From contig BGKB01000085.1 of NCBI GenBank assembly GCA_003116975.1, positions 462,331 to 526,330 of the forward strand: a stretch of DNA of 64,000 nt, read 5' to 3'. The notes under the pieces were generated by a model. The model did not search any database and was not told the origin of the DNA. It saw nothing but the letters and a program-made list of their open reading frames with translations. The translations under genes and the position numbers were made by a program. This document shows, piece after piece, positions 24,701 through 48,218 of this stretch. Position 1 is the stretch's first letter. Each line of letters opens with the position of its first letter. Source of the stretch: Aurantiochytrium sp. KH105 (Eukaryota; Sar; Bigyra; Thraustochytrida; Thraustochytriidae).

Positions 24701-25459
24701 CTTGCTCGTCTCTCTACCTGCCGACCGGTTGCTCCCGCGCTAGTCTGCTCTCGAAAGATGCGAGGAACGAGCTCGCAAATTCGAGTACGAGGAGGAGGGT
24801 GGCTTTTGGCGTGGGTCGCTTCGTCTCCCCTCGTCCTCGCCGAGCCGCAACTTTCCGGGTCTCCTGGCGTTCAAACTACGGAAGACTGGCCAGCTTCTTC
24901 TTCGCGATTCCGCGTTTCCGCTCGCGCCGCTGCTCCTCTCGGCTGCCCGCAAGCCTGAGCGCCTTCACACACACAGAGAGCGAGAGCTCGGTGACGGTCG
25001 CGGCGCTGATGACGTCGCCACAGCCGCTGATGATCAGATCACCGCCGATGCTCTTCGCGTCGCGATGTCGCGCGACGGCCAAATCTTCTTTGGCAGTCGC
25101 TTCGCTTCGCTCCGCTCCGCCCCGCTCCGCCCCGCTCCGCCCCGCTCCGCCCCGCTCCGCTCCGCTCCACCCCTGCCTCGGGCGCGAGGGCCGGGCGCGA
25201 TGGCGGTCTGCCCGAACTGTCTCGAGACAAGACACGGCCGGGATGGAGCGAGATAACGAAACATATTTGAGAGAGGGAGAGAGACGCGCATGCAGACGCC
25301 TATCTTCTCTCGGCTCGCCGCGCCTCGGTGCGCGCGCGGCGTCGGAGGCCCGCGACGCGCGCGCTCTCCATTTGCTCGCGCGCGCGCGCGCTCGCTCGCC
25401 CGCGCTCCTCGCCCGCGCGCCTGCCCGCGCGGGATTTCCGTCCGCGAGGGACGGCCGCC
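24701..25459. promoter_or_regulatory. Divergent promoter region with GC-box-like tandem repeat
   Basis: About 760 bases between the MFS gene and the acetyltransferase gene. At about 25100-25170 the unit CCCCGCTCCG is repeated several times, flanked by shorter CGCTC runs. These resemble clustered GC boxes and are the most striking regulatory-looking element here. The forward frame through CGCGCG-rich 25380-25430 is open but reads as Arg/Ala low complexity and is treated as leader. Confidence 0.45.
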
Positions 25460-28400
25460 ATGGAGAAGGAGGCGGAGCCGCACATGGCGGCGCCCGAGAC
25501 GGCGCAGCAGGAGCAGCAGCAGCAGCAGCAGCAGGACGAGCGAGCGACAGCGGTGCCCCTTGCGAGTGCGGCTGCAGCTGAGCCACAGCAGCAAGATGAG
25601 CAAGAACAGCAGCGAGAGGAGCGAGAGCGAGAGGCCACGAAGAAGGAGCCGCTCGAGGGGACCTCCTTGCAAAGCGCGCTCAAGGCCCAAAAGCTAAGCG
25701 TGTTGCGGCTGTGGCGCGAATGGGCCGATAGTGAGGCCAGCGCACGCAGAGCGCAAGACCCAGATGCTGACGCTAACGGTGTTGCCTCGGAATCTGCTGC
25801 CAACGATGCCAACGCCGACTCGAAGGCTGTACCCCTCAAGCCCGAGGATAACGCCAAGACACCCGAAAACGTAGTGGAAAAGCGGCGACCGCGCGCGCTG
25901 TCTCGGGAAGAGGTCCAGGCACTATCTGTTGTTGGGGGCGCCCTCATGAGTGATGAGGACTTGAAACACCACCTTGAGGACCTGGGCAAGGAGAGCAACC
26001 GCGTCTTTACGCCGCTAACCTTGCTCCTACGTAGGCTCTACGAGCACAAGATGAACCGAGGCATCTTTAACAATCCGGTCGATCCTGTAGCTCTCCAACT
26101 TCCCACATACTTTGACGTTGTCAAGTCCCCAATGGATCTTGGTACAATGCGAAAAAAATTGCAGAGACACGAGTACGCGGACTTGGAGGCCTTTGGACGT
26201 GACGTGGAGCTTGTGTTTAGCAACGCAATGCTCTTTAATCCTCCGCGATTTGCAGTCCACCAGGCAGCAAAGAAACTAAACAAGGCCTTCCACGCCGACT
26301 TTGACAAGCTCGTGGCCGAACATCGCGCGCAAGAGGCGGCCGCCGTCACGCACTCGTGCGAGTCGTGCAAGGGCGCCACTTGCGAGCTGTGCGGTCGTGG
26401 CTGTCTGCACTTTCAGGAACCCGCACTTCGCTGCAGCGCGCCGTGCAAAGCGCGCATCAATCGAAATGCTGTCTATTATCGCTTTGGCGGCGACCGTGGA
26501 CAACATTGGTGCAACCGCTGCTACACGGCTCTGCCAGAGCACTTTTTGGGTGTGCTCGGCCAGCCGATGCGCAAGAGCGAATTGGAGCGGCGTGTGAACA
26601 ATGACGTCTATCGTGAACCCTGGGCTCAATGTGGTAACTGTAGTCGAAGAGTCCACCAGATCTGTTCCCTTTTTCACTCCTCAATTGTGCGTAGCGGGAC
26701 ACTTTTCCGCTGCGCCATTTGCGTTGCCGCATCGCGTGGCCTCAAGTCGAGCGTACGGCACCTTTCAACAAACGGCGCAACAAAGGCGGACACTTCCGTT
26801 CCTGCGCAAAAAATAAACGCTGCAGAAGAAAAGGAAGATCCCTCCGTCTCCGCCTCTGCCGCCCCGACCGACCTTGCTGTCCCTGCGCAAAGCGCGGACG
26901 TGGCTGCTCCAACTCAAGTCGTCGGTGAAAAGAGGCAATTGGAAGCCACCGAGGATCCGCCTGCGAAACGGCAGCGGTCCGAGGAAAGCGGTGACGCGAA
27001 CGCTGGGAATGGAGGAGAGGCCAATGGCGGGAGCGTCAACATGTCTTCGCCGCAGGAAACGGTGCAGGGCGTATTGCGTGATGCCGACCCTTGGGCAGAC
27101 TCTTTACCGCACACAGCCATGGGCGCTTACCTCGAGGACCAGGTGCGCAAGGTCGCGTGTGCGCAAGCGTCGCAAGAGTTTGCAGATTCAATCACTTTGC
27201 GCGTGGTTTCGAGCCGGGATGTCGTCACCGAGTACGAGGCAAGAGCATTGCGTTGGATTGAAGCGCAACGCAAATCGTGTGGGGACGCGTATGCTGGGAC
27301 CGATTTTGCGCGACGTTTTCCGTGCCGGTCCAAGACGGTGCTGCTCTTTCGACGCATCGATGGAATTGATGTGCTGTGCTTCGTTCTCTATGTGCAAGAG
27401 TATGGCGCCAGTTGTCCTGCGCCTAACAAAGGCTGTATTTACGTCTCGTACCTTGATTCAGTGGCGTACATTGAGCCTGCGGGTCTGCGCACGGCTCTGT
27501 ATCAAGAAGTGATGGTGAGCTACTTTCGTTGGTGCAAGGCGCGAGGCTTTGAGACATGTTATATTTGGGCTTGCCCGCCGCAGCGCGGAGATGCCTACAT
27601 TCTCTATTGCCATCCCAAGTGGCAGCGTTCGCCTGGTATTGAGCGTTTACGCAAGTGGTACGCGCAGATTGTCCAAACATGCAAGGACGAAGGTGTGGTC
27701 TTGGCTGAGACAAATTATTACGACAAACACCTCTCGCAATTTCGCCCACTCCTCAACACGCGGTCGTCCCGAGGCCGCCGTCCACCAGCGGCTCCAGGGC
27801 CGCCTGCTTCAGCCGTGCCATCAAGTGCAGCAGGCGGCGGCGGTGGCGGCGGCGGTCTTTACGGTCCGGGCAAGCCCAGTGCAGCAGCCGCACAAAATAG
27901 GGGGTTAGGATTAGGAGGAGGGGTGATCCAAGGCGGGGGCAAACCGAGCTCAGTTCTCAATGCAGGAGCGTACGGGCAATCTTTTGGCGCAGATCGACCA
28001 GCGTCTCCAACGTCACCAACGACTGCGGTTATGGCGGGCACTTTTGGGCCGTCCCAAATTCAATTTCCGATCGAGACTGTGCCTTATTTCTATGGCGATT
28101 ATCTTCCGAACGAGGTGGAGTCACTGTTGAACATTTTGCGGAATCCTCGTGATGGCGCGGACAACCGGCTCCAGTCTTCTGTCGACGAGCAGATTGCTGT
28201 ATGGTGGCGTGAAGTCTGGGGCGTGCGAACGCATGCTACACTCCTGCAAGGCTCTGGCAAAAATGCTAATGCCGATGTTCGCGCAACGTCTGCTACTCAA
28301 AATGCTCAGAATTCTACGGGAGCGGCAACGGGTGACAACGCGGCTGCGGCTGCAGGGGCCACAACGGTGGCGACCGCCGGAAACGCTTCCACTACACTCA

Positions 28401-28939
28401 AACCGACAGCATCTTCAATTCCTGCGGTGGCTCCCGAGGGTAAGGGCGGAACTCTGGAGGCAGTGCGGTCCCCAATGTGGAAGGTGGCGCCGACCGTGGA
28501 TCTGGAAGACGCAGATCTTCACAAGGGCTTCGCCTCGCCGCAGCAACGCAATGATTGGCTCATGCGTCGGCTCGCGGCAGCCATCAAGCCAATGTCCGAA
28601 AACTTTCTCGTTCTGACTTTGAATGAGGCTTCTCCTCTTCAAGGACCATCGGCTGCCAATGGCGGCTCAGCCGAGAATGCACTGCCTCCCAAGGTCACGG
28701 ACTTGGGTGGGGTGCTGCTCACGGACGACACAAGCGACCCGGATCCAGTTCTCCCTCCGGGCATCTTTGACACGCGCATGGAGTTTCTCGACATTTGCAA
28801 GCACAATAGTATTCAATTCGATGAATTGCGTCGTGCCAAACACTCGTCGCTTGTGCTCATGCACTACCACAAGAAGGCCACACGCCAGGGGCTCAAGGCC
28901 GTCACCCCTATTGCTCGTCGCCGAAACCTCGCTGGCTAA
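25460..28939 (+). CDS. p300/CBP-type histone acetyltransferase (KAT3 core)
   Basis: 1159 aa from ATG 25460, which sits in an ideal context (GCCGCCATGG); the upstream open frame is Arg-rich leader. A Gln-rich N-terminus is followed by a bromodomain (about 187-295, with YFDVVKSPMDLGTM and the acetyl-Lys-binding Asn in MLFNPPR). Next come RING-like and PHD Cys/His modules (about 300-430, for example CGNCSRRVHQIC). The KAT11 domain begins near 577 with ITLRVVSSRD, then KTVLLFRRIDGIDV, VQEYGASCPAPN, YVSYLDSV and IWACPPQRGDAYILYCHP; in p300 the Trp and Tyr of that last motif are key catalytic-site residues. A Gly/Ala-rich insertion (about 775-870) precedes PYFYGDYLPNEVE. The C-terminal subdomain ends in FDELRRAKHSSLVLMHYH. 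TAZ1, KIX, ZZ and TAZ2 are absent. It acts as a nuclear transcriptional co-activator. Confidence 0.92.
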   Translation: MEKEAEPHMAAPETAQQEQQQQQQQDERATAVPLASAAAAEPQQQDEQEQQREEREREATKKEPLEGTSLQSALKAQKLSVLRLWREWADSEASARRAQDPDADANGVASESAANDANADSKAVPLKPEDNAKTPENVVEKRRPRALSREEVQALSVVGGALMSDEDLKHHLEDLGKESNRVFTPLTLLLRRLYEHKMNRGIFNNPVDPVALQLPTYFDVVKSPMDLGTMRKKLQRHEYADLEAFGRDVELVFSNAMLFNPPRFAVHQAAKKLNKAFHADFDKLVAEHRAQEAAAVTHSCESCKGATCELCGRGCLHFQEPALRCSAPCKARINRNAVYYRFGGDRGQHWCNRCYTALPEHFLGVLGQPMRKSELERRVNNDVYREPWAQCGNCSRRVHQICSLFHSSIVRSGTLFRCAICVAASRGLKSSVRHLSTNGATKADTSVPAQKINAAEEKEDPSVSASAAPTDLAVPAQSADVAAPTQVVGEKRQLEATEDPPAKRQRSEESGDANAGNGGEANGGSVNMSSPQETVQGVLRDADPWADSLPHTAMGAYLEDQVRKVACAQASQEFADSITLRVVSSRDVVTEYEARALRWIEAQRKSCGDAYAGTDFARRFPCRSKTVLLFRRIDGIDVLCFVLYVQEYGASCPAPNKGCIYVSYLDSVAYIEPAGLRTALYQEVMVSYFRWCKARGFETCYIWACPPQRGDAYILYCHPKWQRSPGIERLRKWYAQIVQTCKDEGVVLAETNYYDKHLSQFRPLLNTRSSRGRRPPAAPGPPASAVPSSAAGGGGGGGGLYGPGKPSAAAAQNRGLGLGGGVIQGGGKPSSVLNAGAYGQSFGADRPASPTSPTTAVMAGTFGPSQIQFPIETVPYFYGDYLPNEVESLLNILRNPRDGADNRLQSSVDEQIAVWWREVWGVRTHATLLQGSGKNANADVRATSATQNAQNSTGAATGDNAAAAAGATTVATAGNASTTLKPTASSIPAVAPEGKGGTLEAVRSPMWKVAPTVDLEDADLHKGFASPQQRNDWLMRRLAAAIKPMSENFLVLTLNEASPLQGPSAANGGSAENALPPKVTDLGGVLLTDDTSDPDPVLPPGIFDTRMEFLDICKHNSIQFDELRRAKHSSLVLMHYHKKATRQGLKAVTPIARRRNLAG

Positions 28940-29820
28940 ATAAGCTCCTCCCGCCTTTAGCGGCGCGCTGAGCGTTTTGTCTTCGAGCGTCGTGCGTCGA
29001 GTGCCAAGCGTCGAGGCATCGAGATTCGATCCACCGCAGCGTTGTCTGCTACTTGCCAGTGTGCCTAACGCCGCTATTCTAACGAATCAAATGAAGATGC
29101 TCGCCGTCGAACAGGGGCGCGAGAAAAGCTTGTCGACGGCATCCTTCGCGCTGTAAGCGCAACTAATCTAGTGTGCGTCTCTAAACGGCCAGCTGACATC
29201 TTTGCGCTCTTGGAAGCGCAAGTGACTGACTTCCAGGAGATTGTAAAAACATCCAATCTCGGAAAGCGCAAGTCTGCGGGGAAAGACGATCAATTCATCA
29301 CAATGCTGCTTTGTGTGCACTGGTCTGGGTTTTTCTACAATTGCTCAAGGTATGCGCACTATTTGCACATCTGAGCCTCTTGTGCATCTATCTCACCGGC
29401 CGGTGCTGCAAATGGACGGGCTAGCGAACACTATACGAACCCTACATCTCTCTCGCTACGCATGTTCTCTTGAATTATCCAGATTTATTTCGGGGTTGTG
29501 CAGAAGTGATTTTTTGTTCCCGCTTGTTTTCTCTTGAGTTGTCAAGCCAAGCCTCAGCACACAGAACCCCAACCTAACCGCGGACGCTAGAGAAGGTCGC
29601 TCACGTTGCGCGCGAGCGATCCCCCAAGAGTTTGAGCGCGTGCAGGGCCCAACGGGCGAGAACGGATCGTGCGTCCACCCGGGCTTCGTCGCAGTCCATT
29701 GCCGTCCTCGTGCGTGAGCAAAGGTAGCGTGGTTCTGCACGAGCTGAGGCGAAGTTGCGCTTGGCGCAGCCTAACCGTAAGCTGCCTCGAGCAAGCTCGC
29801 GTGTGCCTGTCGCCGGTAGG
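28940..29820. other. Intergenic region upstream of the transposon gene
   Basis: This holds the 3' flank of the acetyltransferase gene and the leader of the transposase gene. I looked for piggyBac-type TTAA target sites and terminal inverted repeats. No TTAA is visible here, and no inverted match to the downstream flank stands out. A protein-like fragment at 29062-29374 is listed separately. Confidence 0.4.
29062..29374 (+). pseudogene. Protein-like fragment without ATG start (possible exon or remnant)
   Basis: A stop-to-stop frame of about 100 codons has a composition like a real protein: mixed charge, LVDGILRAVSATNLVCVS, then DIFALLEAQVTDFQEIV. It has no ATG at its beginning and no recognised domain. 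A good 5' splice site (TCAAG|GTATGC) lies near its end at about 29349. It could be an exon of a spliced gene, a remnant of an older insertion, or chance. Confidence 0.25.
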
Positions 29821-31566
29821 ATGTCGCAGCAATCGACGTGCGCAAGTTGCGGAGAGACCGGTCACAAGCGCTCGTCGTTTCGTGGCTGCAAGAACTACAC
29901 GCCTCGCAAACGAAAGACTGTCGAGGCCGCACCTTCTGGTTCAGCAAGTGAAGCGTCAGCGCCGACTCCTACGCAGACGGCTTGGACACTCTTGCCATCT
30001 CCAAACACGTATGAATTGGAGTATTCGGCGGATGTACGTTCGCAGATTTTCATGCCTGGGCTCAAGCGTCAGTGCAAAGACATCCATGATCATGTAACTA
30101 CCGAAGGAAAGACGTTGTTTCGCAACGTCGAGAATGCCTCCGGGATCAAAGCAATGCACGTCGCGTATCTCGTCATGGGCAGGGTTGTTTCGCGAATGGT
30201 CCCTTCCATCAACGAAGGTATTCGCAGACTTGACCCTGACGTAGAAAGGGTTGATGAAGCCGAGTTCCTGCGGTTCGTGGGGGCTCTTATTTTCTTCCAG
30301 ATGACCACCCTGTCTAGGAGCGCTGGCATGATGTGGCTTCAAGTTACTCTGGGCCAAGGGCACCCGCTTCCCCTTGAGCGTTTCAAGCAGATTTTAAAGC
30401 ACGTGAGTGCGATCGACCCTTCCAGCTTCCAGACGAGCGGAGCGACATTTGGACCGAGCACGGACTTGGTGGAGAGCATGAGACACTTTGAACAGTCCCT
30501 CTTTGTCAGCACGCGTAGACTAACCGCGTCGCACGACGGCATACTCGTCGTAGATGATGAGCTCGTGGGAACCCGCTCAGAAGAGGTGCATCAGGCCGAC
30601 AGCGTCAAGAATGATGCAGTTGCCGACTCTCTTCTTCGCATCATGCACGCTGTCCGGCACAATGGCAGGGAATACAATCAAGCTGCAGCCGTGGAAAGTC
30701 TCCTCACCGATGTTGATGTCTTCAATGGTCAACGCGGATCACTTCGATCCGTCGGCATGACGGCCGACCGCGGATATAGTAAGAGTAAGCTGTGGTCGGC
30801 GATTCTCGCTCGTGGTGCGTGGTTCCTCATGATTTCCAACACTGCGGGCGACCCTTTCGTCCCCTTAGATGCGGCCCTGAAGAAGGTAGAGAGCGCTGAA
30901 ACGAGATTGGCGAAAGTGCGCGCCCAACGCCGCGACATCAACGAGAGCCGTGCTACATCTTCGTCGCAAGTGAATGCCTCGTCGCAAGAGAATACTTCGT
31001 CGCAAGAGAACTCTGCGTCACGAGAGAATCCTGCGCGAGGAAAATTTGGCCGCCAACGCGAAACGCTTGAGAATGTCAAGGCAAGGGCGATCAGCGCCAA
31101 GGTTTCAAATTTCGACCCGAACTTTGTCATAGACGATGCGCCACTCCTGGGCCGTGAATTATACGCAGCAACCTCGAGCGTGGGTGAAGGAACCTCAAGA
31201 AAGTCGCTCATGGCGATTGCTTTCAGAGACTATCAAGACTGTGCTTCCGAGAATCCGACCAGAGTACTTCGCTTTGTGACGAGTGGATTCAGCCACGAGA
31301 AGAAGCTTCCACGTACGATTTGCATGGAGCCCTTGGACTTTCCAAAAGGGACCCGGCTGTCCAAAGGTGTTCTCTTTTACCCGTGCAGCACAAGCAGCAA
31401 GTCTGTGGCATTACGAACAATGGAGCAAGCTCTCAAGTCTCGTGGGGTGCTTCCCCTTACGTGTTGGCAACGTTGCGCGGACTGGTCTGTGCTCCGGACG
31501 ATGGTTCTCACTGGTACAACTAGTCACCTCCTCGCACGCCAATCTCCGGAGGCACGCCGCTTTTAA
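29821..31566 (+). CDS. piggyBac-like transposase, N-terminal part (zinc knuckle + DDE domain)
   Basis: 581 aa from ATG 29821; the frame upstream opens only at TTG. Residues 7-23 form a zinc knuckle (CASCGETGHKRSSFRGC, ligands C7, C10, H15, C23). The piggyBac DDE_Tnp_1_7 domain starts near residue 145 (DEAEFLRFVGALIFFQ, then LERFKQILKHV). Candidate catalytic acids are Asp245/246 in ILVVDDELVG, Asp316 in MTADRGYSKSKLW followed by the typical LARGAWFLM strand-helix, and Asp470 in AIAFRDYQ followed by RVLRFVTSG. The order and local patterns match the three-Asp triad of piggyBac transposases. A Ser/Gln/Asn repeat (about 380-405) sits between D2 and D3. The frame ends at TAA and continues directly into the next ORF. 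The protein would excise and integrate DNA, normally at TTAA. Confidence 0.72.
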   Translation: MSQQSTCASCGETGHKRSSFRGCKNYTPRKRKTVEAAPSGSASEASAPTPTQTAWTLLPSPNTYELEYSADVRSQIFMPGLKRQCKDIHDHVTTEGKTLFRNVENASGIKAMHVAYLVMGRVVSRMVPSINEGIRRLDPDVERVDEAEFLRFVGALIFFQMTTLSRSAGMMWLQVTLGQGHPLPLERFKQILKHVSAIDPSSFQTSGATFGPSTDLVESMRHFEQSLFVSTRRLTASHDGILVVDDELVGTRSEEVHQADSVKNDAVADSLLRIMHAVRHNGREYNQAAAVESLLTDVDVFNGQRGSLRSVGMTADRGYSKSKLWSAILARGAWFLMISNTAGDPFVPLDAALKKVESAETRLAKVRAQRRDINESRATSSSQVNASSQENTSSQENSASRENPARGKFGRQRETLENVKARAISAKVSNFDPNFVIDDAPLLGRELYAATSSVGEGTSRKSLMAIAFRDYQDCASENPTRVLRFVTSGFSHEKKLPRTICMEPLDFPKGTRLSKGVLFYPCSTSSKSVALRTMEQALKSRGVLPLTCWQRCADWSVLRTMVLTGTTSHLLARQSPEARRF

Positions 31567-33360
31567 TTGAAGACTGCGTGGGAAGTCCATCGCATTAATG
31601 AAAGAACGTCCGACGATGACAACAGCGACTCGTCCGTCAGCCCTGAGGGTGCCAGCAGAGTCCACGAGGACGCTGGCAGCGAAGGCCCGGACGAGGACTC
31701 CGATGGAGATTCTGGGGATGCTGAGAACGAAGCTGAAGACCACGACGGCGACGGCGCCAGCACTGCTGAGCTCGATGACAACGACGCCGAGTCCGTTACT
31801 AGCGACTTAGAGGACAATCGCGGCGATCTTGAGGAAGCAGATGATGAGGGTTTTCAGGACGGCATTGAAGCCTTCGACACAGCAGTGGAGAATAACCCGA
31901 ACGAGGTTCTTCGTGCTGCGGCAGAGTCGCTTATGGCCTCTTGGTTTTTCTCGCGCGGAGTCGTGACAAAGCAAATGAAGACAGGAACCAATAACAAGGC
32001 CAACCTTTTCAAATCCATACAGAACCAGGTTTGGTGCCGCCATATCTTTAAGGTCGGCTTGCTTTCGCGAGAAAGAGAACCATTTCTGGCCGTCTCCAGT
32101 GATGCCGTCGCGCAATTGACGGCGCCCGGCAAGGGTCCAAACACAAGTCAAATTCTTGCAAGTGTCGAGATCAAAACGAGGTCATCAAATGAATCGCTCG
32201 AACGAGCAACAAAGATTCAACAGCAAAGGGGCCGTTACTTCTCCTGCAAGGTCGGTGATGATCTTTGGTGGTCGATCATTCCGGATCAACATCGAGGACA
32301 AGTTCTTCACCAGGCCATGGTCCTTGACATTGATGCAGTCCTTTATGTTGAAGGGAGCGTCACCGAGGTCCTCTTTGCGTGTCTCGTGCAGGTTCCACGA
32401 AGTGTACGGAGCGCATATAAGGCGGCTCTCATGCGGTTCGAAAACCTATTTTCGTGGGCGTATGTTGGTCTCGAGGACGACACTCCACCCCCGTCTCCTC
32501 CTGCCGCTTATTTCAATGAGGAACATCGCGCCATAATCTCGTCGCATATTCGCCTCTGGCGTGCGCTCCGGCGGAAAGTCCAGGGAGGCCCACTTCGTCC
32601 TATCCGCGTCTTCAAAAGCCTCGCACAGGTTGTCTACAACACAATGAAAGGCAGAATGGACGGCCATTCCCAGTTCGTCGCCGACATCGATTCAAGAGGA
32701 TCATTTTGCACAAATCTTCAGCAGAAAGTCGCATTACAGGGGATTCTACAATTAGTGGTCAACTCCTTTATCATTTTCATGGTCGTTCACGCATGCACCA
32801 AGTCGAACGGCACCTTTGACTTCCAATGGGACTCACTCGAGTCTTTCCGTAGAGCATGCAACGAGACACTATCTGTGGACGCCTTTGTGATGGACCTTGC
32901 AATGCAGTTCACGAAGCATAGCACGGATTTTTTAGGACTCCAAGTTTCAACCCCAACGTCTCAGACACGAGTGCCTTCGCCAGTAGCTAGTGACTCCGCA
33001 GTCTCAAGTACTTTGGAAATCTCCTTGGACATGGCTCACGCGATTGTGGCTCGTTGTCCTGGAAAACGTGCAAAGAAGCGCCGGAAGTGGTTTAATACCG
33101 ACGAGCACGGAAGACGCGTGAGACTTTGTTCAAACCTACCTCATCAGTCTGTTTCGCTAGGTTTGTATGACAATGGCTCGCCAAAAGTGAGTGTTTGTGC
33201 GCTTTGTGGGCCCGGTTCCCAAGCCACCCGTGAATGCTCTATCTGCAAGGTTGCTCTTCATTGCCAGGTGAATCATAAAACCTCTTCGCAAAGTACAAGT
33301 TGTTTCGAAAGATGGCATAGTCTGCAGTCGCTCGACCCGCATCATCACTCTCAGGCCTAA
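31567..33360 (+). CDS. Continuation of the transposase frame: acidic linker + YqaJ-like PD-(D/E)XK nuclease + C-terminal zinc module
   Basis: 597 codons in frame with the preceding ORF, directly after its TAA. Residues 13-105 are very acidic (Asp/Glu/Ser). Residues about 118-275 match the YqaJ/lambda-exonuclease branch of the PD-(D/E)XK nucleases. A GTNN.A helix at 140 stands where the family has GTxxE (here Lys replaces Glu). FLAVSSDAV at 173-181 has Asp179 for the SPDG motif, ASVEIKTR at 198-205 has Glu201 and Lys203, and a downstream QVLHQAMVL helix has the Q-x3-Q pattern of motif IV. The C-terminus (about 540-590) is the Cys/His cluster typical of piggyBac transposases (CALCG, CSICKVALHC, then CFERWH). 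The first ATG is at 31933, so independent translation would lose the linker. Conservation of the nuclease residues suggests recent function. Confidence 0.65.
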   Translation: MKTAWEVHRINERTSDDDNSDSSVSPEGASRVHEDAGSEGPDEDSDGDSGDAENEAEDHDGDGASTAELDDNDAESVTSDLEDNRGDLEEADDEGFQDGIEAFDTAVENNPNEVLRAAAESLMASWFFSRGVVTKQMKTGTNNKANLFKSIQNQVWCRHIFKVGLLSREREPFLAVSSDAVAQLTAPGKGPNTSQILASVEIKTRSSNESLERATKIQQQRGRYFSCKVGDDLWWSIIPDQHRGQVLHQAMVLDIDAVLYVEGSVTEVLFACLVQVPRSVRSAYKAALMRFENLFSWAYVGLEDDTPPPSPPAAYFNEEHRAIISSHIRLWRALRRKVQGGPLRPIRVFKSLAQVVYNTMKGRMDGHSQFVADIDSRGSFCTNLQQKVALQGILQLVVNSFIIFMVVHACTKSNGTFDFQWDSLESFRRACNETLSVDAFVMDLAMQFTKHSTDFLGLQVSTPTSQTRVPSPVASDSAVSSTLEISLDMAHAIVARCPGKRAKKRRKWFNTDEHGRRVRLCSNLPHQSVSLGLYDNGSPKVSVCALCGPGSQATRECSICKVALHCQVNHKTSSQSTSCFERWHSLQSLDPHHHSQA

Positions 33361-34356
33361 GCTTGGAGTCAAGGCCTCGAACGGCAAGTAGGCCTAGACA
33401 AGAAACTGGCGAACCGGCGAAAGGTCGAAAAGAAGAGATAACGACCAGGCGATAACAACACATACGCAGGCTCGGCTCTCATGCTCGACAAGTTTGAAAG
33501 GAAGGCTCACAACCCGTAAAAACCTAATTTAACATCATGTTCCATCGCCCAGCACCCCACCCCGCCAACCACGAGAAACATTCCACCATCGCCTTTTCCC
33601 TGCTCGTGCCCTCCCCCAAAGAAAGCATAGTTTCCCTCCGCGTTCACGCTCGATGAAGATGCCCTGTTCGCCTGGCTGGCGCTCGTCGAGCTTTTCTGGC
33701 CTTGGCTTGCCTCCAGGAGCCCCAACTAACAGCACGCGAACGAACAAAACACGATGATCGCGATGATGTCATCATGAGGTCGTCGCTAGGACAATCTCGC
33801 CCCAAAAAGTCTCGTTGAAGCTGCTGAGGCGGACGAGGCTTTTCCGGCGCGCAAAGCCCGTTTCGCTCCCGGCGCGGCGCGGACGGCGGCTGCGGCGCGT
33901 GGCAGCGCGGGCCAGCCAGCCAGCCAGCCAGCCGACCGGCCGGCCGCAGCGAGCGAGGGAGCGACGCCTCGCGCGGGCGCGCCTTCGCAGGCGGGCGCGG
34001 CGAGAGAAACCCCGGCTGGCGTGCGCCAGAACGGCGCTCGACACGGCCCGGTCTGCTGCGCCGCGGCGAGCGGGCGAGACGCGCGAGGCCGGGGCCGCGG
34101 CTGGCGAGGGAGGGCGACGTGCAGGACGCTGCGAAGGGCCCTCGCTCTCGACGTCGCCTTCTCTTTTCGTGGGAAATAGTATCTCGCCGGCGGCTACTTC
34201 TTCGTTGGAGCTAGCTAGCTCGTGGCCCAAGAGCAGAAGCGGAAGCTCAGCCCAACTCCACTCCCGGTCACTCCGCTCGCTCGACGCCGTTTGGTATCGC
34301 GCAAGCCTCGAGCTGCGCCTGTGCGTGCTTGCGGTTGTTTGTGCGCGTGTGCGAAA
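33361..34356. other. Intergenic region and leader of the NIPA-like gene
   Basis: This begins with the transposon gene's 3' flank, which contains TTAA at 33529-33532. A GC-rich stretch follows with CCAG repeats (about 33910-33935) and CCGGCCGGCC. The sequence CTAGCTAGCTCGTGGC at about 34210-34225 recurs at about 46758-46773. The frame upstream of the NIPA ATG opens only at GTG. No gene is seen. Confidence 0.4.
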
Positions 34357-35889
34357 ATGTTGAATCTGTACACGTTGATCGGCGCCCTCGTGGAGGTGCT
34401 GGGCGCTGACTTCTTCACGGTAGCTGGACTCGCGATGCAAAAGGTCGCCGTCATGAAACTGATTGAGAACAATAGAATGCATGGCGCCGTAGAGCCAACG
34501 GGTTCCTCGTTTCGGGCTGGTAGCGGCGCTGGCGGAGGTTACGCCGCACTCGCCGAGGAAGAGGACGAGGGGGAGGAGACCGAAACAGATAGCGAGATCA
34601 TGACAGTTTTTACAGAGAGGAGCATGCGCGAAGCCAATGCCATCAACGACACGCAGGTTCCAGATAGCTTTGAGCTGATGCGAAATTGCGGCTGGTTGCT
34701 CGGACTGATCGTCTTTATTTTGGGCAACGCCCTTGAGCTCTTCGCCATGTCGCTGACATCGCAAACCAATGTTGCGTTGCTTAGTAACTTTACGCTGGTG
34801 TGGAACGCAGCATTCTCCGTGTTCATCTTCCAAGAGACCTTTCATCTCTTTCCGCCACAGCGCGAATGCTCGTGGGACGTTTTGGTACGGCGCTGGGACG
34901 CGTTACACTGCACAATCCTCATTGTCGGCTCTTGCGTCGCCGTCGTCTTTACGCCTGCGACGCCAGAAGACGATATGGACTCAAAAGACCTTCTCCACCG
35001 ATGGACCGAACCGCCATACTGCTATTGGGGTGGTTTCATGCTGGTAACAATGTTCATCACGTCGTTGTTTCTCGTCAAGAACTGGCGTAATCACAAGACG
35101 GGTAACTTGAATGCCGCGCTCATTGCCGGTCTGTGCGGCTTCATGTCGGCGTTTTGCGCGACTCTCTCCAAGGTGGCGACAACTCTCATTTCCAAAACAA
35201 TTCGAGGCAAGAATCAATTTGATTCTCCCGAGGCGACCTTTTTGTGTGTTCTCTGGGTGTGCATGCTCATCAGCCAGCTGGCGCTCCTCAATGTAGGCCT
35301 CGGCGCTTTTGAGCAGGGCCTTGTAGTCCCCATCTACGAGATCGTTGGCACCTTGGCAACGATCGTGTCTGGTGTCCTCTTTTATCAAACATACCAGGAC
35401 TTTACGACACCAGACTGGATCGGCTTTACGACGGGCGTTGCGCTCATGAGCTGGGGGGTTTACTTGGTTGCCCATCGCGAGGTTCACACGCAGCAGGAGC
35501 TGAGCGACTTTCTGCACGCGAACCTTTCGCACATGGACGACCTCTTGCACTTGGGCCATTTTGAACGGCGCACGCGGTCGGCCGACATGCTCGACGTTGA
35601 GACGGAACCAGGCACAATGGAGGATGCGGAGCGGTCTCTCTTGCACACATTCCGGCGCGCCGCCTATTCTGAAGTGAGCGATGTGCACGAGGGTCGACCG
35701 GGATTTACGAACAAGATTTTACAGCGCATCCAGGGCGAGGATGCACAGACGCCCCCGGGAACGCCAGGGCGCTCGCCCAAGGCTGGCCGCTCGCCGGGAT
35801 TTATGAATGGAGCCAGCGCGGCCACGGCGTCGACTTCTGACGGCATCGCGGCCATCCTCGAGCGCTCGAGGTCAAGGAATGGGCGGTAA
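34357..35889 (+). CDS. NIPA-like magnesium transporter (DMT superfamily)
   Basis: 510 aa from the first ATG (34357). About nine hydrophobic helices are visible. The first, LYTLIGALVEVLGADFF, is followed by an Ala/Gly and acidic cytosolic loop (EEEDEGEETETD). The family-like helices are NCGWLLGLIVFILGNALELFAM, TNVALLSNFTLVWNAAF with the following FQETF, a middle region with GGFMLVTMFITSLF, AALIAGLCGFMSAFCATLSKV, and near the end LVVPIYEIVGTLATIVSGVLFYQ. These match the NIPA/DUF803 layout of the drug/metabolite transporter superfamily, members of which move Mg2+ in endosomal or plasma membranes. A long hydrophilic C-terminal tail (about 410-510, Ser/Thr/Pro-rich) is likely regulatory. The extra loop after TM1 and the long tail make it larger than typical members. 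Confidence 0.78.
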   Translation: MLNLYTLIGALVEVLGADFFTVAGLAMQKVAVMKLIENNRMHGAVEPTGSSFRAGSGAGGGYAALAEEEDEGEETETDSEIMTVFTERSMREANAINDTQVPDSFELMRNCGWLLGLIVFILGNALELFAMSLTSQTNVALLSNFTLVWNAAFSVFIFQETFHLFPPQRECSWDVLVRRWDALHCTILIVGSCVAVVFTPATPEDDMDSKDLLHRWTEPPYCYWGGFMLVTMFITSLFLVKNWRNHKTGNLNAALIAGLCGFMSAFCATLSKVATTLISKTIRGKNQFDSPEATFLCVLWVCMLISQLALLNVGLGAFEQGLVVPIYEIVGTLATIVSGVLFYQTYQDFTTPDWIGFTTGVALMSWGVYLVAHREVHTQQELSDFLHANLSHMDDLLHLGHFERRTRSADMLDVETEPGTMEDAERSLLHTFRRAAYSEVSDVHEGRPGFTNKILQRIQGEDAQTPPGTPGRSPKAGRSPGFMNGASAATASTSDGIAAILERSRSRNGR

Positions 35890-39240: not shown

Positions 39241-42087
39241 TTAGGCGACATCGAAACCCATGGAAGGCGTCTCTGGCGGGGCTGAGGGAATGTTGAGGCC
39301 AAAGCGGCCGAGATGAAGCTGAAGGTCGTCCTCCATCTCGGGAAATTCCTTGGTCAGCTGACCGAGCGTGTACAGCACACTGTCTCGAGTTTGATTGAGC
39401 AGATCGTTCTTGAAGATTGTCTCGTGAACAGACTCCTTGTCCCGCGAGAGACCAAGGCTTTCGCGATGCTGGTAGCGGTGTTCGCGGAGCTTGGCATTGG
39501 CACGGTCGAGCTGGGCCTGCTGTTGGCCAACCTCTGCCACGACTTGCTCATGCGTCTGGTCGAGATGAAGGCTGTTTTCGGAAGCCACCTTGGCCTGCTC
39601 GTGCAGCTGCTCAATACGACGCTTGTCTTCGGCAAGGTCGGCGATGAGTCGCTGGAGCTCCTTTTTCTTTTTGAAGGCAGTGTCGCGCGCAGCCTCCGTC
39701 TCTCGGACGACACGGCGAAGTTCCATTGCATCGTGTGACTTTGGATTGGCGCGATGCGCAGCGGTGCGCGATTTGGAGTTGATGGCGTTGATATCGGCCA
39801 GTGTCTCCTCGAGGGCCCGGATCTCGCGCGTGGCCTTGCGGATCTCGGCGTCGAGCTCGTCACCCTCGCGCTGGAGCTCCTCGCGCCGCTGCGCCGCAGC
39901 AATAACAAAGTACGCCTGTGATCGCTCTTCGCCATCTTCACCGACTTCGGGGCTTTTGGCGATTGTGGCGAACTTCTTTTCGAGCTTTTGCACACGCAAC
40001 TTGCAGTCTTTGGCCTCCATGGCAATTTTATGACGCTCCTCTTCGGCAAGCTTGGCGCGTGCGCGCTGCATGTCTGAGTGGACCTGAATTTCCTTTTTGC
40101 GTTCCTGCATGCTCATTTCAAGCTGAAACTTGCGGTTTTCGAGGCCATACACCTTGTCAGCGCGCTCATTGAGCTGGTCGCGCAAACTCTTGACCTGGAG
40201 CTTCATGAGATCGTGGTTGACCATGGCGTCTTCCTTTTGCTTCATGATGCCCTGCAGGCTGTTTTCGGCGCTGCCGTTCTCAAGCTTGAGCTCGTGCAGG
40301 CGTGCGGAGAGCTCCTTGCGCTGTTCTTTGGCACTGACGGCGGCACGTTTGGTACTGCGCAGCTCATCCTCGAGGTTCTTGACCTGCGAAAGGAGCATTC
40401 CATTCTGAGACTGTGCAGCCTCGAGTTCTTGCTTGCACTCGGCGATGCGCTTGTTGAGCACCTTTTTCTCATCGTCGGATCGAATGCCCTTGGCGCGCGC
40501 GACGCGGCGCTCGAGCTGCTGGATCTGAAACTCTGCAGTGTAAACGAGCTCTTTTTGGCGGAGTGACTCCTCATCGAGACGCTGGATCTCGTGCGAGAGA
40601 TTCTTGCCAGTGGCCTGAGCGCCCGAAATCTCTGCGAGCAAATTTGCCTCGCGCTGTCTGCTTTGAAAAAGCGCCTCGGACTCTCGGAATGTCACATCTT
40701 TGAGATGCGCGAGAGCCTGCTCGACGGCCTTGACCTCGGCCTCGCGCGCGTGCAAGGCCTCCTCGGCGGCGCTGGCGCTAAGTTCGGCTGTGGACGTGTC
40801 GTTCCGGGCTTCCTCAAGGGCCTGCTTGGCAACCTGGAGGCGTTCTCGGGCGCCATCAAGCTTGGTCTGAGCTTCTTCGATACCGAGCTTGGCGTTGACG
40901 ACCTTTTGCCGGGCAATTTGCACCTCGTTGGAAGCCTTGGCAACCTCGGTCTTGCGAAGCTCGACCTCGGCGCGAAAGTTTTCCACGCGTTCCTTGACTT
41001 CGACTTCCTCGGCACGTTTCTTTTGTAGGATGCGATCAACAAGCTGTGACTGGGTCTCCATCTCCTGGCAGTCTGCCTCGAGAGCCTCGAGACGCGCCTT
41101 TTCCGCGCCGAGGTCCTTTTTGGCATGGCGCAAATCACTTTTGCTGATGGCAAAATTCTCTCCTGCTTTTTGAATGTCCTCGTCGCGAGCCTTGACCTGT
41201 GCAATGGCGTTCTGCCACTGGTGGATGACGTCTTGGCGCTCTCGGTGTCGCGCCCGGAATTCCTCTGCCGTCTTGTCAAGCTCGATTTGCTTGGCCTGCG
41301 TCTCGGTGACTTCCTCATCGAGGAGCTTGCGTTTCTCTTGCAATTCGACGGTGAGCTTTTCGATGGTGAAATTGAGCTCCTTTGTTTTGGCATCATCTGA
41401 CTTCATGTAGCGCTCAAAGGCATTTTTGTCGTCCTCATTTTGTGTCATGGCCAGGGTCCACTGCTCGAGTTCTTCCTGGTTAAAGTTCATGCTCACCTTG
41501 AACTTGTCCATGAGGTCATTGCCCTTGAAAATTTCGTTTTGCACGGCGCTAAGCTGAGTCTGCAGATCCTCCTTTGCTGTGTCTGTCTTGGCGATTTCGA
41601 GCTTGACGCGGCCAGCCTCGCGCTTGGACATTTGCTCCATATGCTTTTCGGTGTCGAGCTCTTTGCGTTTGGCCTCGAGAAGCTGCTGGGTGTGACGAAA
41701 CTCTTGCTGAACGCTCTTTACGTGCTCTGCCATGGCGCGCTTGCGCTCTTCGTGCTCGAGGAGTTTCTCCTGTGCCTTTTCCAGCTCGAGCTCGAGCTGG
41801 CTAATATGTTTGTGCAGCTCGCGGTTCTCGCGATTGGCAAAAAGCGGCACCCCTCCATCAAGGGCCATGTCATCGTCGTCCTCGTCCTCGTCTTGGTCAA
41901 GGTTTTCGACGTTGTCGTAGCCCTCGTCGCTGGCTCCGACCCAGCGCGTCGCGCCGTTGTCGTTCACCGAGGTGTTGTCGAGCTCCTTTTCCTCTTCGAC
42001 TTCATCTTCGTTGGCGCCAGCCTCGAGGCGGTCCTTTTTATCATCTTCATGCTCGTCGTCAGCCACTTCATACACCGGGATGTCCAT
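39241..42087 (-). CDS. CCDC39: CCDC39/FAP59-like axonemal ruler protein
   Basis: 948 aa, almost entirely coiled coil after an acidic N-terminus (about 1-80, with EDEDDDDM). Diagnostic stretches aligned from memory with animal CCDC39 include ELDKTAEEFRARHRERQDVI followed by HQWQNAIAQVKARDEDI, FQIQQLERRVARAKG, and EERSQAYFVIAAAQRREELQ followed by REGDELDAEI. CCDC39 with CCDC40 forms the 96-nm ruler along doublet microtubules that positions radial spokes and inner dynein arms. The length matches the animal protein (about 940 aa). The short C-terminal tail ends in a Pro/Ser segment. It lies head-to-head with a dynein light-chain gene, which supports a ciliary role and possible shared regulation. 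Confidence 0.88.
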   Translation of the reverse strand: MDIPVYEVADDEHEDDKKDRLEAGANEDEVEEEKELDNTSVNDNGATRWVGASDEGYDNVENLDQDEDEDDDDMALDGGVPLFANRENRELHKHISQLELELEKAQEKLLEHEERKRAMAEHVKSVQQEFRHTQQLLEAKRKELDTEKHMEQMSKREAGRVKLEIAKTDTAKEDLQTQLSAVQNEIFKGNDLMDKFKVSMNFNQEELEQWTLAMTQNEDDKNAFERYMKSDDAKTKELNFTIEKLTVELQEKRKLLDEEVTETQAKQIELDKTAEEFRARHRERQDVIHQWQNAIAQVKARDEDIQKAGENFAISKSDLRHAKKDLGAEKARLEALEADCQEMETQSQLVDRILQKKRAEEVEVKERVENFRAEVELRKTEVAKASNEVQIARQKVVNAKLGIEEAQTKLDGARERLQVAKQALEEARNDTSTAELSASAAEEALHAREAEVKAVEQALAHLKDVTFRESEALFQSRQREANLLAEISGAQATGKNLSHEIQRLDEESLRQKELVYTAEFQIQQLERRVARAKGIRSDDEKKVLNKRIAECKQELEAAQSQNGMLLSQVKNLEDELRSTKRAAVSAKEQRKELSARLHELKLENGSAENSLQGIMKQKEDAMVNHDLMKLQVKSLRDQLNERADKVYGLENRKFQLEMSMQERKKEIQVHSDMQRARAKLAEEERHKIAMEAKDCKLRVQKLEKKFATIAKSPEVGEDGEERSQAYFVIAAAQRREELQREGDELDAEIRKATREIRALEETLADINAINSKSRTAAHRANPKSHDAMELRRVVRETEAARDTAFKKKKELQRLIADLAEDKRRIEQLHEQAKVASENSLHLDQTHEQVVAEVGQQQAQLDRANAKLREHRYQHRESLGLSRDKESVHETIFKNDLLNQTRDSVLYTLGQLTKEFPEMEDDLQLHLGRFGLNIPSAPPETPSMGFDVA

Positions 42088-45433: not shown

Positions 45434-46570
45434 TTAAAGTCCCGATCCGGGAGAACTCGGTCCCTCAGACGAGGAAGAGCTCTGACTGGACGTGGAGGAG
45501 AGAGGCGAGTCCGGGAGCGCCCGTGTCTTGGGCATGAGATCCCGGAGTCTCGTTTGAATGTGTTGCAAAAAGAGCATGGAGGCCTTTTGCTCTGCGGCAT
45601 TCCATGTACAGGGGGCGCTGCGGGCGTCGCGACGCACGAGACGCGCACGTTTGCGAGTGGCGCCGAGACGCGGTGCAGCGGATGGTTGGTCTTGGGACTT
45701 GACGTCTGCCGTGGTTGAGGACAACGTCAGGTTCGAGCGAGGACGCTTGAGGCTGCCGGTAAGGGCGGGGGACTTGAAGACGCATTTATCGGCGCCTACA
45801 ACGGGTTTGGGTGGCTCGAGGTGCGTGCCTGTTGTCCTGTTTCCGCCGCCAATGTCCATCGTGCACATGAGTTTGCGTGTGGAGGCGATGTCATCATCAT
45901 CGTCATCGTTGTTTGTTCGACGGCTGTCGGGGCCGGTCAAGGTCTTGGCTGCGACGGAGGCGGCCGAAAAATCGTTCGCGTCATCGGTGTCAAAAAAGGA
46001 GGTTCCGCTGCATTGCAGCTCAGTGCTGCGCACTCTGCGGTGGCCTCCTTGAGACATTGCCGGCATGGAGGGACTGGCGCCAGGCGCTGGTTCGACGAGG
46101 TCTTGACGCATGTGCATGGCTTCGGTTTTGGACGTGTGGGAGAAGATGTTGGACCGGTTGAGATTGTGGTTTTCCGAGACATCTTTGTCAGTGTTGGCGT
46201 TGTTGTTGGAGTCATTGTGGCGACGCTGAAAGCCCGTTTGCAGAAAGAAAGAGGTCGCCTTGTCGAGAGACCTTCTGTGCTGCCTCTGTTGCCTTTGCTG
46301 CTTTTCTTGAAATACACGTTGCTGCGGTCGCATCGGGTGGCGACGCTTCTCCATTTGGCTGGGGCGGTGGACGGGGCGCTTGAGGGGCGCGTGTTCCTGG
46401 TGCTCAGCGGCTACTTTTGCCGTCTCGTCTCGCAGATTGATGAGCGTAGGGGCGGGAGACTGGTCCCGCGGCTCGCCGTCAACCTCGTCGTGCGTTTTGG
46501 CTTCTTCGCAGAGGTCGTCCCCGAGGCGGGGCACGTGCAGCGGCCTCGTTGCAACGTCCACGCCAGCCAT
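45434..46570 (-). CDS. Disordered hypothetical protein
   Basis: 378 aa from the internal ATG 46570; the open frame extends upstream to 46756 but is Arg/Ala/Ser leader-like. The sequence is rich in Asn, Ser, Gln, Pro and charged residues, with a run of six Asp (NNDDDDDDIAS), a basic patch (ATRKRARLVRRDARS) that could be a nuclear signal, and a Ser-rich C-terminus. A short hydrophobic helix near the end (MLFLQHIQTRLRDLM) may be a binding helix. No domain is recognised. Antisense frames here are open too, but they read as hydrophobic low complexity. The gene is plausible but not certain. Confidence 0.5.
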   Translation of the reverse strand: MAGVDVATRPLHVPRLGDDLCEEAKTHDEVDGEPRDQSPAPTLINLRDETAKVAAEHQEHAPLKRPVHRPSQMEKRRHPMRPQQRVFQEKQQRQQRQHRRSLDKATSFFLQTGFQRRHNDSNNNANTDKDVSENHNLNRSNIFSHTSKTEAMHMRQDLVEPAPGASPSMPAMSQGGHRRVRSTELQCSGTSFFDTDDANDFSAASVAAKTLTGPDSRRTNNDDDDDDIASTRKLMCTMDIGGGNRTTGTHLEPPKPVVGADKCVFKSPALTGSLKRPRSNLTLSSTTADVKSQDQPSAAPRLGATRKRARLVRRDARSAPCTWNAAEQKASMLFLQHIQTRLRDLMPKTRALPDSPLSSTSSQSSSSSEGPSSPGSGL

Positions 46571-47072
46571 GCGTGCGTCTCGTTTCCGAGATGCGGGTCT
46601 GTGTTGTGCGCAGGCGTGCGTGCGTGCGTCTGCGAGCTGCCCCCGCTCTCTCTGTCTTTCGCGAGCGCTCGGGCTCGCTCCGCTCTCTTTGCTTTTGCTT
46701 GCTTTGCCTGCCGCGCGGTGAAACAGGTGTGCGGAAGAGCCGGGTTTGTCTAGCAAACTAGCTAGCTCGTGGCTGAGAAGCGGCGGGTTCTCCTCCTCCC
46801 TTGGGTCGAGTAGAAGGTTCGTCCACCCAGAGCGTGCCTCGCTAGATTGGGTTGGTTGGTGCAGGCGCCCCGAGACCGAGTCTGAGACCCTCGCGTGCGC
46901 GCGTTGCTCTGCTGCTTACGGAGGTCTGGCGACCAGCAGAAAAGCAGAGAGACTGGCGACGCGAGCTGTCGCGCGGCGTTCCTCGGCCGGAGTGAGCCTG
47001 TGACTGTGAGCCCGCTGTGCCGGGCCTCGTCTGCTTCCCCTCTGTGCTCTCTCTCTCTCTTGCTAGCTAGCT

Positions 47073-47086
47073 TACCTGTACAGGTA
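47073..47086. repeat. 14-bp perfect palindrome TACCTGTACAGGTA
   Basis: Perfect dyad within AGCTAGCT-rich flanks, lying in the gene-poor region. It could be a binding site or chance. No neighbouring gene has been established. Confidence 0.5.
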
Positions 47087-48218
47087 GCTAGTTCGCTAGC
47101 TGCTGTGTATGTAAGTATGTCTACACTAGCAGCGGTTGGTCCTCCTCCTCGCCTGGTCTCGTGGGTCCCAGAAACAGGAGGCCCAGGCGCGCGCGCGCGT
47201 TGAGCTTGGCTTCGTCTCGCGACCTGAACCGTGGTCGCCCGCGTCGAAAGCGGGACTGGACAACGACGACGACGAAGAAGGCGAGCGGGTGAGCGATGGC
47301 CGGCGCGAAGCAGGGCCTCTCGTCTGGCTGGCTGGCTGGCTGGCTGGACTGACTGACTGACTGGACTGGCCTGTCTTGGAGGAGCGGCTCTCCTCCCTCT
47401 TTATTCGCTATTGGCCAGGGCCGCCCCGGCTCGCCGCGGCTCGCGCGAGGTTCTTTCTTTCTTTCTTTCTTTCTTTCTTTTTCTCCTGGCGCTCGCGGCG
47501 CTGCACTGCACTGCTCTGCTCTGCCGCGCTGCGCTGCGTCGCGAAGGGCTGCCGCGCTGCTGCTGCTCTGCTGCCGCCTTGGACGCGGAAGGGGGGGTTT
47601 CGCGAGAAGGTTCGACTTGGCTGGCAGGTGGGCTAGAATGTGATGGATGGAGGACGATGATGTCTCGCCTCCTCGTGGGACTGACTGACTGACTGACAGA
47701 CACAGACTGATGCCGAGCTCGGCTCCTCGCTCCTGCGCGCGCGCGCGAGCGCTCGCGCCGGTTCGGGCTTTGCTCGTCCCTGCCCGCGCGTCTGCGCAGC
47801 GCTACGCCACGCCGCGCGGCGCTGTCGGCGTTTCGAGTCGAGTCGGGTCGAGTCAAGTCGAGTTGGGTCGACTTTGGTTTGCTTTACACTGCTCTGCTCT
47901 GCTTTGGCGCAGCCTGCCTGGCTGGTTTCCTGCGCTTTTTCTTTCTTCCCTGCACCGCCTTCCTCTCGTCGGTTTCCGCACGGAGCAGCCGCGCGTGGCT
48001 CGCCAGCTTCTGGTTTGTTGCCCGTCTGCAGCGGCAAGCAAGCCGTGCTGCTCTGCGCCTGGCAGTGGCTGGCTAGCTGGCCGCGGCCTCGGGGCCGAGC
48101 AGGCTCGCTCGCTGCGGCTGGTCGGCGGGTCGGCTGGCCGGCTGGCTGGCTGGATCTGATCATTCGCGACAATAAACAGCTTGCTCGGTCCGCTTGGGTC
48201 TGATCGGGCCTCCCCATC

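Follow-up and report, generated by a model that had tools for sequence, protein, structure and literature searches.

A predicted lambda-exonuclease-type nuclease within a piggyBac-like transposase frame of Aurantiochytrium sp. KH105

A stretch of 64,000 nucleotides from contig BGKB01000085.1 of Aurantiochytrium sp. KH105, referred to here as the window, contains at positions 29821-33360 a sequence that resembles a piggyBac transposase and also carries a PD-(D/E)XK nuclease domain of the YqaJ/lambda exonuclease type. This locus raises the question whether a cut-and-paste transposase has taken up a second nuclease into its own polypeptide and what such an enzyme would do during transposition. 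The comparison of sequences led us to lean, with some reservation, towards the reading that the window holds a dead copy of a piggyBac-type transposon, in which the nuclease is nested between the second and the third aspartate of the DDE triad and most likely resects the 5' ends of the donor site.

The joined frame and its relatives

A TAA codon at positions 31564-31566 splits the region into open reading frames of 603 and 597 amino acids in the list of frames, with the piggyBac-like part, an acidic linker, the PD-(D/E)XK core and a C-terminal Cys/His module all lying in one phase. The allele on C184, which is 95% alike to the window locus over 6.5 kb including the flanks, is open over 1210 codons, or 1179 counted from the first Met. 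The genome (G000; 76 Mb in 367 contigs) appears to hold both haplotypes, and many pairs of loci look like haplotypes since they are about 95% alike over whole loci. Ten loci that had been chosen for open frames in the genome searches, C184 included, were fetched whole and contained both halves in single frames of 1210 to 1348 codons (1179 to 1344 amino acids from the first Met), with an identical order of motifs in all ten; merging of likely alleles reduced this set to eight loci. Since the C184 frame is open and the ten loci contain single frames, the joined arrangement is real despite the stop codon in the window, and on the evidence of these loci, picked for open frames, we rejected the alternatives that the halves are distinct genes or that they share a phase by chance. 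Moreover, about 11 diverged families of the genome, according to our own grouping, show this arrangement, with motifs that are degenerate in some of them, and the JGI protein P0005 (1192 amino acids) combines both parts as well, which excludes chance. The search for full-length copies proposed in the initial annotation found the two domains linked at the loci chosen for open frames.

The proteins P0001 and P0002 and the two Nitzschia proteins span the nuclease and what follows it. As the last public protein search (alignment A2) gave no matches, the relatives outside the genome comprise P0001 to P0005 only; 56 pattern matches in viral contigs yielded none that was confirmed. Other copies in the genome are broken (C158, C241 and C73) or are deletion derivatives (on C1, C242, C12 and C67), and a count of copies at face value was rejected, as the 42 and 47 search matches include pieces, alleles and relics. 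The deletion derivatives on C67 (L020) and C12 (L021) are 96-99% identical by aligned piece to the copy on C83, which suggests recent activity of that subfamily. Six further matches (C16, C49, C15, C44, C106 and C164) cover the same span, 458-593 of the second half, with near-equal scores and internal stops, and probably represent a repeated non-autonomous derivative.

The features of the window frame are compiled in Table 1.

Table 1. Features of the transposase frame and of the element copy in the window
Feature	Position	Strand	Basis
Transposase frame, 1179 codons including one stop, and final stop	29821-33360	+	translation in one phase
In-frame TAA stop	31564-31566	+	no such stop in C184 allele
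Candidate N-terminal zinc knuckle, C7-C10-H15-C23	29839-29889	+	sequence; zf-CCHC only E 0.22
N-terminal helical, DDBD-like piggyBac part	30082-30552	+	PF13843 positions 13-127 on residues 121-233
First catalytic Asp, D245 (DDELVG)	30553-30555	+	hmmsearch alignment to piggyBac D268
Second catalytic Asp, D316 (ADRGY)	30766-30768	+	conservation and motif order only
YqaJ-like domain start (QRCADW...TGT), 5' of the stop	31462-31530	+	Pfam YqaJ in P0003 begins at homologous place
Acidic linker inside nuclease region	31600-31845	+	sequence
PD-(D/E)XK nuclease core, residues 711-889	31951-32487	+	
Nuclease Asp, D761 (SPDG motif)	32101-32103	+	family alignment
Nuclease ExK, E783 and K785	32167-32175	+	family alignment
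QxxH(Q) motif, Q827 to H830	32299-32310	+	family alignment
YNxxKGxxD motif with third catalytic Asp, D947	32635-32661	+	aligned to piggyBac D447; downstream-part match to piggyBat
C-terminal Cys/His module, C1126, C1129, C1139, C1142, C1161, H1166	33121-33318	+	piggyBat profile matches; conservation
Relic element copy, 5' terminus to last base aligned with deletion derivatives	29440-33390	+	homology to C1/C242

The initial annotation had described one reading frame, and this holds for the common phase of both halves, which is nevertheless interrupted by the stop. Its Asp179, Glu201 and Lys203, numbered in the second part, correspond exactly to D761, E783 and K785 when the frame is joined, and the acidic linker and the C-terminal Cys/His module were found as described. 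The zinc knuckle CX2CX4HX7C exists as a pattern in the sequence but scores weakly, and the elements named GTxxE and QxxxQ occur in the proposed order, although the Glu of the first (GTxNE) is replaced by Lys726 in the window copy. Two of the three candidate aspartates of the DDE domain, D245 and D316, precede the nuclease, whereas the third, D947, follows it, contrary to the initial annotation. Accordingly, the nuclease does precede the Cys/His module, but it is nested inside the catalytic domain and not placed behind it.

Identity and position of the nuclease

The catalytic D, E and K of the YqaJ/lambda exonuclease fold are present in the window, and the respective residues D761, E783 and K785 are invariant across the window and P0001 to P0005. 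Lambda exonuclease was the best structure for the nuclease region, which has the PD-(D/E)XK fold expected for the second part, and the Pfam profile YqaJ (PF09588) matched the diatom relative P0003 with 28.9 bits at a cut-off of 22. Additionally, phage exonuclease families matched three of six proteins (L070, L076 and P0003) below an expectation value (E) of 0.001, including a RecE-like PHROG match in L076 at E 2.3e-6. When the nuclease region by itself was compared with the PDB sequences, none of the 19 matches was a PD-(D/E)XK nuclease.

PF13843 (DDE_Tnp_1_7) matched the N-terminal part of the window frame at E 2.7e-4 (20.8 bits, cut-off 22.4); among seven family members it matched L067 (20.3) and L076 (14.4) below the cut-off and gave no match in five, and DDE_Tnp_1 matched residues 462-605 of L068 at E 9.8e-4, likewise below the cut-off. 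A profile of the part 3' of the nuclease detected piggyBat as best match (E 1.2e-7) and piggyBac as second (0.082) among 177635 distinct PDB sequences, and in the Cys/His module the downstream-part alignment A7 matches piggyBat in two stretches. With the whole-family profile, piggyBac (E 0.022) and piggyBat (0.045) were the sole transposases among 18 matches, the top match being a homologue of the zinc protein NSE1 (E 0.013) ahead of piggyBac. This profile aligned D245 with D268 and D947 with D447 of piggyBac, and its third stretch, corresponding to the Cys/His module, falls on piggyBat 519-573. The third Asp thus resides in a YN..GGVD motif followed by a C-terminal Cys/His module, as in the piggyBac superfamily; this motif reads KGRMD in the window copy and YN..KGGVD in the family alignment.

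The aligned motifs follow each other in the order D245, D316, a strand-like RVLRFV, QRCADW...TGT, acidic linker, GTxNE, SPDG, ExK, QxxHQ, YN..KGGVD and Cys/His module. The RNase H fold of piggyBac is described as broken after its fifth strand by an insertion domain (372-433), with D447 following (PMC7351741). From the alignments to piggyBac and piggyBat and the position of this insertion domain, the nuclease appears to interrupt the catalytic domain before the third Asp, at or beside the insertion-domain site. This placement, which is based on sequence and not on a whole-protein structure, goes further than the initial annotation and is more unusual.

Pairwise distances of the upstream part and of the nuclease were strongly correlated (r = 0.947; 12 representatives; permutation p 0.0002), and the ratio of non-synonymous to synonymous substitution rates (dN/dS), pooled over six pairs of copies, was 0.44 for the upstream part and 0.36 for the nuclease, in which the single pairs ranged from 0.20 to 0.54. 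These data support the view that the lambda-exonuclease/YqaJ-type nuclease is a physical part of the piggyBac-like transposase, conserved with it, and not a separate gene. Three of six ordinary piggyBac-like loci were scanned (L001, L003 and L005), and none had a YqaJ match at E 0.01. The haplotype pair L001/L002 (C193/C261) represents an ordinary piggyBac-like gene with a frame of about 1545 codons that is matched by the whole of PF13843 and not by YqaJ; its haplotype dN/dS of 0.15 makes it a candidate for domestication.

The family shares with piggyBac and piggyBat (PF13843) the DDD-type motifs, the YN..GGVD helix, the C-terminal Cys/His module, CCC termini and a 4-bp duplication, whereas its protein is about twice as long, contains a YqaJ-like nuclease before the third Asp and is associated with ATAT in place of TTAA. 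The nuclease has the fold and the D, E and K residues of lambda exonuclease, LHK-Exo and YqaJ (PF09588); those structures are not parts of transposases, whereas the nuclease of the family is a transposase domain and contains a long acidic insertion. Accessory nucleases of this fold are already known from two transposons, ISL2EU and KolobokE (PMC4482050, PMC9179366, PMC9587614). ISL2EU is reported to encode a YqaJ exonuclease alongside its DDE transposase, but the two occupy separate frames and the transposase belongs to the PHIS superfamily (PMC4482050, PMC9179366); at the ten loci picked for open frames YqaJ does not occupy a separate second frame. Because ISL2EU and KolobokE carry such nucleases, the fusion is less isolated than had been assumed initially, when the arrangement was taken as undescribed; among the titles and abstract openings of the literature matches listed, no description of a piggyBac-type core that encloses a nuclease was found.

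Termini, target site and the window copy

The deletion derivatives of the window's subfamily on C1 and C242 are 1978 bp long, with seven differences and different flanks. They have the termini CCCTAAC...GTTAGGG, and other subfamilies have CCCGATGA and CCCCATCC. Like these, the terminus CCCTATCTCAGAG starts with CC[C/T], as in the piggyBac superfamily. Both ends were read in seven insertions, a count that excludes C67, C17, C36:402k, C103 and C84, where an end is missing or was not found. Five of the seven have ATAT at either side and none has a TTAA duplication, the exceptions being C242 (ATAA/ATAT) and C12 (CTTC/CTAT). C73, where ATAT flanks enclose a perfect 13-bp repeat, was detected by a pattern favouring ATAT-like flanks and is counted apart. 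Joining the flanks of three insertions revealed an uninterrupted counterpart for each (98, 78 and 93% identical), and all five empty sites read for them, one on the window's own contig (C85:187361-187652), contain a single ATAT at the insertion point; those of C36 may be paralogous, as the flank belongs to a repeated family with 32 matches. The insertion flanks and the single ATAT in the empty sites clearly indicate a 4-bp duplication of ATAT, not TTAA, between CCC...GGG termini. Non-TTAA duplications reported for piggyBac of seven bee species have been attributed to possible mutation (PMC10140906). A third terminus-like site is located at C1:443146.

The element ends were mapped in relatives, as had been proposed, but in the window the 5' end, CCCTAC... 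at about 29440, is degenerate and lacks ATAT, and a search beyond 33390 revealed no 3' terminus. Homology to the C1/C242 derivatives extends from about 29458 in a relaxed search, and strongly from 29559, to 33390. Owing to the stop in one haplotype, the window copy is best read as an immobile relic. A domesticated host gene is quite improbable, even though the locus is present in both haplotypes with an intact frame of 1179 amino acids in one and the missing 3' terminus would suit such a gene. The window allele has the stop, deletion derivatives of its subfamily have moved, and the dN/dS between window and C184 (0.475) is like that of most mobile families and unlike that of C23/C296 (0.21) and C69/C133 (0.23), with the caveat that C34/C65, in which the motifs are largely conserved, is also low (0.27). 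The pairs C23/C296 (L056, L057) and C69/C133 (L058, L059), with these low haplotype values, have themselves lost DDE and nuclease residues, retain long open frames in both haplotypes and showed no matching termini in the stretch examined; they are candidate domesticated genes.

Proposed role of the nuclease and neighbouring features

Under the reading that we favour, the DDE site would excise the element through hairpins, as piggyBac is known to do, and would insert it at ATAT by that route. With less assurance than for that route, the nuclease, held near the transposon tip, would be expected to act on the DNA ends made at excision and most likely to resect the 5' ends of the donor break. Resection would steer repair from rejoining to homologous copying, which would restore the element at the donor site, so that one protein could both move the element and process broken DNA ends. 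Such end processing, or directing of repair, had been suggested initially and is our leading inference. A stronger version, in which two nuclease sites share one catalytic domain and homologous repair of the resected break replaces the departed element as a guaranteed duplication, is put forward only tentatively. All six catalytic residues, three of the DDE triad and three of the nuclease, are kept in 8 of 19 aligned rows, and D, E and K of the nuclease in 8 of the 11 rows with an intact triad as compared with 3 of the 8 with a broken one. As the rows are related and partly allelic, and hence not independent, this retention is an indication of nuclease activity and not a proof.

Several observations weigh against this reading. 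At least one catalytic residue is missing in 11 of the 19 rows (three in the DDE triad only, three in the nuclease only, five in both), and the activities of the DDE site and of the nuclease are both predicted. Pfam YqaJ matched two of seven family members scanned (L070 and L076), both below the cut-off, and neither the window nor the five others, and phage exonuclease families reached only E 0.11 on the window protein. The PDB search with the N-terminal part alone returned no transposase among eight matches; removal of the nuclease in silico left a PF13843 match in one of four members, none spanning the join. The whole-protein model, with a mean predicted local distance difference test score of 38, was poor outside the nuclease, and a joint RNase H fold was not seen for that reason. 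Furthermore, clean ATAT empty sites fit seamless excision and pre-insertion sites equally and do not favour resection.

An enlarged insertion domain that mainly grips the tip or the target, its chemistry being dispensable, appears unlikely to us. The insertion domain of piggyBac is described as lining the DNA channel (PMC7351741), a hairpin just downstream of that of piggyBat as touching the tip (PMC11707139), and in 8 of the 19 rows the nuclease is without D, E or K, three of these rows having an intact DDE triad; yet all three residues are kept in 11 of 19 rows and in P0001, P0002 and P0003, which would be needless in a purely structural domain. About equally doubtful is a nuclease that takes part in excision or integration, where it would trim flaps, gaps or overhangs derived from hairpins and contribute to setting the ATAT target, without a role in donor repair. 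The insertion just ahead of the YN..GGVD helix would suit it, as Y439 and N440 of piggyBac are reported to contact the TTAA hairpin (PMC7351741) and the target here is ATAT, not TTAA, but according to the piggyBac literature consulted piggyBac performs both steps with its DDD site alone. Identity with KolobokE, a Kolobok transposase with a lambda-exonuclease-like nuclease, is highly improbable: the nuclease fold and a 4-bp AT-rich duplication are shared (PMC9587614), whereas the third acid is an Asp in a GGVD-type motif matching piggyBac and piggyBat, the termini are CCC/GGG and not 5'-RR/YY-3', and the nuclease precedes the end of the transposase domain instead of lying downstream of it. Membership in Kolobok was rejected because the termini are CCC...GGG and the third Asp comes after the nuclease.

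If the stronger version is true, the family would be, after ISL2EU and KolobokE and assuming independence, a third case in which a cut-and-paste transposon has recruited this nuclease fold, and the only such case with the nuclease inside the catalytic core. It is a long-standing question by what means cut-and-paste elements increase in copy number and what repairs the donor break, and a transposase carrying a recombination-type exonuclease would make it directly testable in one protein. The arrangement also suggests that the insertion-domain site of a transposase can accept a whole enzyme, and the family, a natural relative of piggyBac that targets ATAT and not TTAA, is useful for asking how target choice is set.

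Tandem repeats scoring 150 or more were absent from the window, and two 2-kb stretches, 40001-42000 and 46001-48000, have a strong AT skew (-0.34 and -0.35). The relic is flanked by genes encoding a p300/CBP-like acetyltransferase with bromodomain and HAT_KAT11 (25328-28936) and a NIPA-type magnesium transporter (34222-35886).

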